The notes under the pieces were generated by a model. The model had not been told where the DNA came from and did not search any database. It saw only the letters and a program-made list of their open reading frames with translations. This document shows, one piece after another, positions 40,434-43,089 of a stretch of DNA of 43,089 nucleotides (the stretch's first letter is position 1; each line of letters begins with the position of its first letter). A program made the translations under genes and the position numbers. Source of the stretch: an uncultured Geobacter sp. (GTDB taxonomy: Bacteria > Desulfobacterota > Desulfuromonadia > Geobacterales > DSM-12255); the NCBI GenBank assembly GCA_937860145.1, contig CALMBF010000179.1, positions 1 to 43,089 on the forward strand, in the 5' to 3' direction.

Positions 40434-40504
40434 ATTGTAATAAAAGCTGGTCCATGGTTTTTTATTGCTTAATTATTTTCAATGGTTACTCAGGGGTGTA
40501 GTTG
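40434..40504 (+). promoter_or_regulatory. AT-rich leader of the histidine kinase gene
   Basis: This short AT-rich region should contain the kinase promoter, but no hexamer pair stands out. A sigma-54-like GG/GC pair (40456-40457 and 40467-40468) has the wrong spacing (9 instead of 10 bases). Confidence 0.3.
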
Positions 40505-42969
40505 GTGAAACCAAAATTGAAAAAATGGTTGACCGACCCGTTACGGGTTCTGTTGGTCCTGATTGCGCTCATTGCGACCACCGAAAGTCTGATCATGCAC
40601 TTTCTCCGCATGGTCAGCAACCGGCTCTCTCCCCTTACATTGATTTTCTTGGATTCATCCCTGCTGGTATTAATACTCTGGCCCGTCCTCTACTTCATGA
40701 TCGTATACCCTCTCCTGGAGCATATTCGTGAACGCTCTGCCGCAGAGGATGCTCTCAAGGTAAGTGAAGAAAACTACCGGCAGTTGATCGATTCCGTGGA
40801 GGGAATTGTCTGGGAAGCCGATCCGAGGAGTTTTGCCTTCACGTTTGTCAGCCGGAAGGCGGAAGATATCCTTGGCTACCTCTTGAGCAGATGGACCGAA
40901 GAATCTTCATTCTGGGCTGACCATCTCCATCCCGACGACCGTGAGTGGGCCATAGAGTACTGCACTTCCGCCTGTCGCGAACTGCGCGATCATATTTTCG
41001 AATACCGGATGCTTGCCGCTGACGGACGGGTGGTCTGGTTGCGCGATCTGGTGACGGTCGTGGTTGAAGCCGGCGAGCCCGTGAGCCTGCGCGGTCTCAT
41101 GATCGATGTGACCGAGAGGAAGGATATTGAACTGGCGCTTGCGGCGAGCGAAAAGCGTTACCAGTTCATGGCCGACAATCTCCATGACGTCATTTGGAAG
41201 ATTGATAAAAATCTGACCTACACCTACGTGAGCGGTTCGGTGGACGAAATGTTCGGCTTTCGGGGTGATGAGCTCGTGGGGCAGCCGTTCGATGTGGCAT
41301 TGACGGAGTCTGCCGCGGTGAAAGCCCGTGAGATTCTTGCAGGTGTCAGCCACGGTCACTATGCAGGGAGTGGCGGGCAGTACAAGATGAACCAGGAGCT
41401 TGAATGCCGCCGCAAGGACGGTTCGATATTCTGGGGCGAGGTGAGCGCTACGCTGCTGTTTTCCCCTGAAAATGAACTTCAAGCCATAATCGGTAGTACC
41501 AGGGATATATCCGATCGCAAGCACGCCGAAAACGAACGGAAAGTCGCCCATGACCTGTTACAGAAGACGATCAACAGCCTTATCGAAGCGGTCGCGATTG
41601 TCGATGCCTCCACTCTGCAGATCAGGGATGTCAACAGCGCCGCCGAGAAGATGTTCGGCTATTTCCGGGAAGAGCTTGTCGGGGCGGATATATCCATGCT
41701 GTATGTCTACAGCGAGATGTTCCAGCGCTTCAATGACGAGATGCACAACTGTTTCAAGGAAAACGGGAGTTTTTCGACCAAGTTGCGCATGAAGAAAAAG
41801 AGCGGCTGGGTATTCCCTACCGAGCAGTCGGTGGCGCAGATCAGCACGGACGATGATGGAGCATGCCGTCATTACGTCTACGTTATCAGGGACATATCTG
41901 TCCAGATGTTGCATGAGGAAGAGCTGAACCGTGCCTACATCATGGTTGCCGAGCGCAATACCTTTGTCGAGTCGGTCATAACCAACATCCAGAGCGGCAT
42001 TATCGTCCTGGACCAGGAGATGCGCATCACCATGATCAACCCCTACGCGGCCGGCATCTGTCACCGCGACGCTGACGAGCTCTTGGGGATACCGTTGCTG
42101 GAGATCTGTCCGGAGCTGCACGAGCAGGTTTGCCAGGGGTGTACCCCGGACGAGATGATCGCCACCTTCTGCGGCAATCGTTTCATCATCGGGTTCGCCT
42201 GCTTCCAGATGCGCAACGTCCGCGGCATCGTGACCGGTACCATCCTCACCTTCAAGGACCTCACGGAGATCGTCAAGATCCGCAACGAGATCCGTCAGAA
42301 ACAGCGACTGTCGGCAATGGGTGAAGTGGTGGCCAGGGTCGCCCACGAGATGCGCAACCCCCTCTTTGGCATGACATCGGCGGGGCAGATCCTGAACATG
42401 GAGCTGAACCTGAACAGTGCTCAGCAGCTGCTGATGGACTCCTTTCTCAAGGAGGCGCGCCGTCTCAACAATCTTGTGGATGAACTGCTGGACTCCACCC
42501 GGGAGGTGCGCCTTGCAAAGAGAACTATCGACCTGGTTTCCGTTATCAACGATTCGTTACGCCTCGTGGCGGGGAGTGCTGCGGAAAGAGGGGTGACCCT
42601 CACGCCTGGGGAGGTCGCAGGTGCGATACAGGTGCACGGGGACCCCGAGAAACTGGAACAGGTTCTGTTGAATCTTCTGAAAAACGGTGTCGAGGCATGT
42701 TCTGAGGGGGGCGGGTCGAGCTGTCTGTCCGGGTCGAGGGGATGACGGCTCTGGTCTCGGTTGAAGACACCGGCAGCGGCATATCGGATGATGTCATGGA
42801 CTCGATTTTCGATGTCTTCTACACGACAAAGAAAAACGGAACCGGCATGGGGCTCTCCATATCAAGAAACATCGTCGAAGCCCACTCCGGAGAACTGGTT
42901 GCACGGAACAATGAGGGCTCTGGTGCAACCTTTGTCGTGAAGCTCCCCGTGCAGATGGAGGCGGGGTGA
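40505..42969 (+). pseudogene. membrane multi-PAS sensor histidine kinase, frameshifted near the 3' end
   Basis: The kinase has two membrane helices (about residues 13-36 and 44-70), then four PAS-type domains (roughly 88-205, 215-345, 350-475, 490-600), a HisKA domain with the phosphorylated His near residue 614 (RVAHEMRNPL) and a HATPase core. The frame breaks after the N box (NLLKNGVEA): a run of six G at 42706-42711 needs one more G to continue as EGGRVELSVRVEGMTALVSV. In the next frame the rest is intact: DTGSGI and NGTGMGLSIS, ending at 42969. It is either a real frameshift or an error near the contig end. GTG 40505 is the likely start; TTG 40502 is possible. It overlaps the response regulator start. 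Confidence 0.85.
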
Positions 42970-43044
42970 AGGCGCTCATCATCGATGATGCCCCGGGGAT
43001 ACGCATTGCCCTTGGTCACTTCCTCAGGGGGAGGGGCTATGAGG
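42966..43044 (+). CDS. response regulator, 3' truncated by the contig end
   Basis: GTG 42966 overlaps the kinase stop (GTGA) and opens KALIIDDAPGIRIALGHFL, the beginning of a receiver domain with the acidic pair DD. Only 26 codons are genomic; the sequence then runs into adapter. As the partner of a PAS kinase it is probably an NtrC-type or single-domain regulator, but the output domain is lost. Confidence 0.8.
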
Positions 43045-43089
43045 CTGTCTCTTATACACATCTGACGCTGCCGACGAATAGAGAGGTGT
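43045..43089. other. Illumina Nextera adapter with i5 index, not genomic
   Basis: Positions 43045-43063 are the Nextera transposase mosaic end (CTGTCTCTTATACACATCT), followed by GACGCTGCCGACGA of the read adapter (43064-43077). The next eight bases, ATAGAGAG (43078-43085), are the reverse complement of the i5 index N/S502, and GTGT begins the P5 flow-cell sequence. The order matches a library molecule read through its insert. Any reading frame here is meaningless, including the minus-strand peptide starting MCIRDS. Confidence 0.98.

Follow-up and report, generated by a model that had tools for sequence, protein, structure and literature searches.

An untrimmed Nextera adapter at a Geobacter contig end within a response regulator gene

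The natural ends of Tn5 and its IS50 elements carry a 19-bp sequence of their own, which is followed by IS50. The mosaic end used in Nextera (Tn5 tagmentation) kits is derived from these ends and differs from them in sequence: it is an artificial replacement, given as Tn5MErev in PMC4248319, where the Illumina read-1 side oligo Tn5ME-A is also printed. The 19-bp mosaic end is a functional substrate of the Tn5 transposase (PMC2229646). The indices used with such adapters, among them S502 (CTCTCTAT), are listed in the table of PMC7589761. Nextera read-through is the closest described system to the one analysed here, with the mosaic end, the read-1 side adapter, S502 and the start of P5 in the same order and orientation; the sole contrast is that here the adapter was kept in the assembly and not trimmed.

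The analysed stretch, hereafter the window, comprises 43,089 nucleotides of an uncultured Geobacter sp. and is the entire contig C179, so that position 43089 is a true contig end. Its last bases, 43045-43089, read CTGTCTCTTATACACATCT GACGCTGCCGACGA ATAGAGAG GTGT and consist of the following parts.

43045-43063, minus strand: Tn5 19-bp mosaic end, the synthetic transposon end of the Nextera/tagmentation kit (exact CTGTCTCTTATACACATCT; Tn5MErev in PMC4248319)
43064-43077, minus strand: remainder of the Nextera read-1 side adapter, reverse complement of TCGTCGGCAGCGTC
43078-43085, minus strand: i5 index S502, reverse complement of CTCTCTAT (PMC7589761 table), common to every readable i5-type end
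43086-43089, minus strand: GTGT..., the opening four bases of P5 in reverse complement; longer i5-type ends run on as GTGTAGA

The first 33 bases (43045-43077) are an exact match to the reverse complement of the published Tn5ME-A oligo, which makes a chance origin impossible. The following ATAGAGAG corresponds to S502 in reverse complement, and GTGT likewise to the ...ACAC which precedes the S502 index in the table of PMC7589761. The first-pass annotation had described these 45 bases as Nextera library sequence with a readable i5 index 502 and the start of P5, and the comparison with the published oligos bears it out on all three points. It is hence virtually certain that the final 45 bases represent Nextera library adapter that was left untrimmed and kept at the contig end.

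The same sequence is spread through the whole assembly (207 contigs, 3.96 Mb, 414 contig ends). The assembly contains 42 copies of the 19-bp mosaic end, 22 of them forward near 3' ends and 20 reverse near 5' ends, and the same 19-mer read backwards, taken as a control, gives no match in the 3.96 Mb. Each site was fetched: all 42 sit at contig ends and face outward, and none lies inside a contig. The arm that follows the mosaic end is of the i5 type at 19 ends and of the i7 type at 23, two of the latter carrying it with one mismatch. Wherever the arm is long enough to read, the index is always S502 (ATAGAGAG) at the i5-type ends and always N702 (CGTACTAG) at the i7-type ends. A single i5 index combined with a single i7 index is the pattern expected from short-insert read-through of one dual-indexed library. 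The i7 end of contig C50 extends through P7 and then into poly-A; sequencing reads give runs of A past the end of the fragment. The i7 ends of C50 and C131 have ATATCGTATG in place of the ATCTCGTATG of the adapter, the same single-base difference after the index. Opposite adapters are found at the ends of contigs C76 and C80, whose genomic parts overlap by 26 bp, which indicates adjacent contigs left unjoined by the assembler.

In the one same-genus genome examined (G001), 18 contig ends carry the exact mosaic end, with indices S503 and N703. These are the next indices of the set after S502 and N702, and we infer that both libraries were made in parallel. One further end of G001, on contig C39, has the 19-mer with one mismatch. 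Apart from G001, the 19-mer is absent from the relatives searched; among 198 genomes sampled from the phylum it is found in exact form in eight, mostly at contig ends. A literature search for adapter-derived proteins, and for surveys that record Nextera remnants in assembled bacterial genomes, returned nothing usable.

The adapter interrupts the beginning of a response regulator gene, which lies directly behind a sensor kinase gene with a broken reading frame.

42706-42712, plus strand: break of the kinase reading frame at a G6 run (frames intact in relatives L071-L077)
42966-43044, plus strand: 5' part of a response regulator gene of the sigma-54 (NtrC-like) type, cut off after 26 codons and one base; the gene resumes at base 2 of contig C3
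42819-43061, minus strand: spurious open reading frame (MCIRDS...), with its start codon taken from the adapter

The GTG start codon of the response regulator, at 42966, overlaps the stop codon of the kinase, and the coding sequence of the regulator breaks off at 43044, in line with the earlier remark that this gene is cut. The remainder (residues 27-447) begins at base 2 of contig C3 of the same assembly (positions 2-1267); with a same-genus homologue as the query, the match on C3 covers query residues 26-443 at 67% identity. The window freed of its adapter and C3 share two bases (GG), which gives an in-frame join without a gap. Across the join the protein reads RGYEVYEAVSG, compared with RGYEVYEAATG in the relative, and the joined gene has 447 codons versus 446-455 in relatives. 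Pfam finds the rest of the receiver domain, the sigma-54 interaction domain and a Fis-type helix-turn-helix on the C3 part. The in-frame join means that the response regulator gene is intact and that the break lies in the assembly alone; the genome runs on without the 45-base insert, the window adjoining C3. Behind the split regulator C3 has two more open reading frames for single-domain response regulators (1577-1969 and 2136-2519).

The functional nature of the 19-bp end as a transposase substrate (PMC2229646) would also suit a real insertion of Tn5/IS50, or of a laboratory transposon of the EZ-Tn5 type, in the response regulator gene. However, what follows the 19 bp is the kit adapter, the index and P5, and this sequence refutes a Tn5/IS50 insertion; a transposon body was sought beside the 19-bp end of the window and is absent, the index and P5 standing in its place. 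The distribution also speaks against an insertion, with 42 contig ends, two adapter types, one index pair and never a contig-internal copy, as do the response regulator, which is unbroken from the window into C3, and the artificial origin of the mosaic end, which substitutes for the natural IS50 ends (PMC4248319). We therefore regard an insertion as next to impossible. A shared 9-bp target duplication was also weighed, but the window and C3 overlap by 2 bases, which rules it out. The adapter end is an ordinary technical artefact, fully explained.

The adapter end most probably arose as follows. Fragments shorter than the read length were read through at their far end, first into the mosaic end and then into the i5 side adapter, S502 and P5; such reads went untrimmed, and the assembler retained the adapter as the contig end. 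About 20 bases beyond the break, at bases 20-34 of C3, lies a G7-A-G7 tract, and the break may be placed where it is because reads thin out at this G-rich stretch just past it. If coverage is thin there, the short-insert read-through reads would be those that reach the break point. Contigs might halt some 45 bases along the adapter because all such ends converge there on one shared sequence. Runs of at least four G or C in the last 60 bases occur at 43 of the 60 adapter ends, versus 63% elsewhere in the same stretches, a difference that is not significant. At 49 of 60 ends the genomic base adjoining the adapter is G or C, compared with a G+C background of 63%. Tn5 has a known target preference, with which this composition of the junction base agrees.

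The kinase upstream poses a separate question. The frame of this PAS-HisKA kinase (40502-42745) stops early, and the rest of the HATPase domain lies in another frame which runs to the stop at 42967-42969. The frame switches at the G6 run 42706-42711, and the break at 42706-42712 falls 333-339 bases before the adapter, matching the distance of about 330 bases estimated in the first-pass annotation. No near relative of the kinase was found in the plasmid collection or in the scan of genome contigs.

Frame breaks were called with a codon-periodicity model on 568 kb from the same assembly and G001, spanning the 60 adapter ends. An earlier model was dropped owing to many false minus-strand calls at gene junctions, and a loose setting of the present one (88 calls, mostly gene overlaps) was left unused. 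At the strict setting six frame breaks are called, two of them less than 600 bp from an adapter end versus 0.38 expected, and the kinase break is one of these two; the other lies near position 500 of G001 contig C296. In planted controls 43 of 60 interior deletions were recovered and somewhat over half of those near ends. This hints, weakly, that contig ends with adapter are also prone to errors, and does not show the kinase break to be an error. The advice in the first-pass annotation to treat the nearby bases with caution is reasonable, while its support, two breaks against 0.38 expected within 600 bp, is weak.

We consider it fairly probable that the kinase break was introduced in error, during sequencing or assembly, at this same G-rich and presumably thinly covered contig end. 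The position of the break in a G6 run, the single unbroken frame across the site in the relatives and the conserved motifs retained in both halves (HATPase_c at 1.3e-17 in the second) agree with an error, as does the rarity of such events, this being one of only six called over the 508 kb of coding sequence. Against it, the excess near adapter ends is borderline (binomial about 0.05), and most of the 60 adapter ends are without a called break; of breaks planted at such ends, however, the model recovers only about half to two thirds. A real and recent mutation unconnected to the adapter accounts for the sequence equally well. Single-base changes in homopolymers are common as real mutations, and short reads rarely make such an error at normal depth; frame breaks are, however, rare elsewhere in the assembly and this one sits near an artefactual end. 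We hold a real mutation to be the less probable of the two. That the break marks a real, recent loss of the sensor kinase in this strain appears rather unlikely. A causal tie between the adapter and the frameshift is not supported by the evidence; read-through alone causes no indels.

The adapter reading rules out biological novelty at 43045-43089, and the presence of kit sequence at 42 of 414 contig ends of this assembly and at 18 of G001 matters for data quality only. It produces false start codons, as in MCIRDS..., false protein tails, such as the plus-strand one that the adapter appends to the response regulator, and needless breaks within genes. As the 19-mer recurs in genomes across the phylum sample, genome scans should screen for it.
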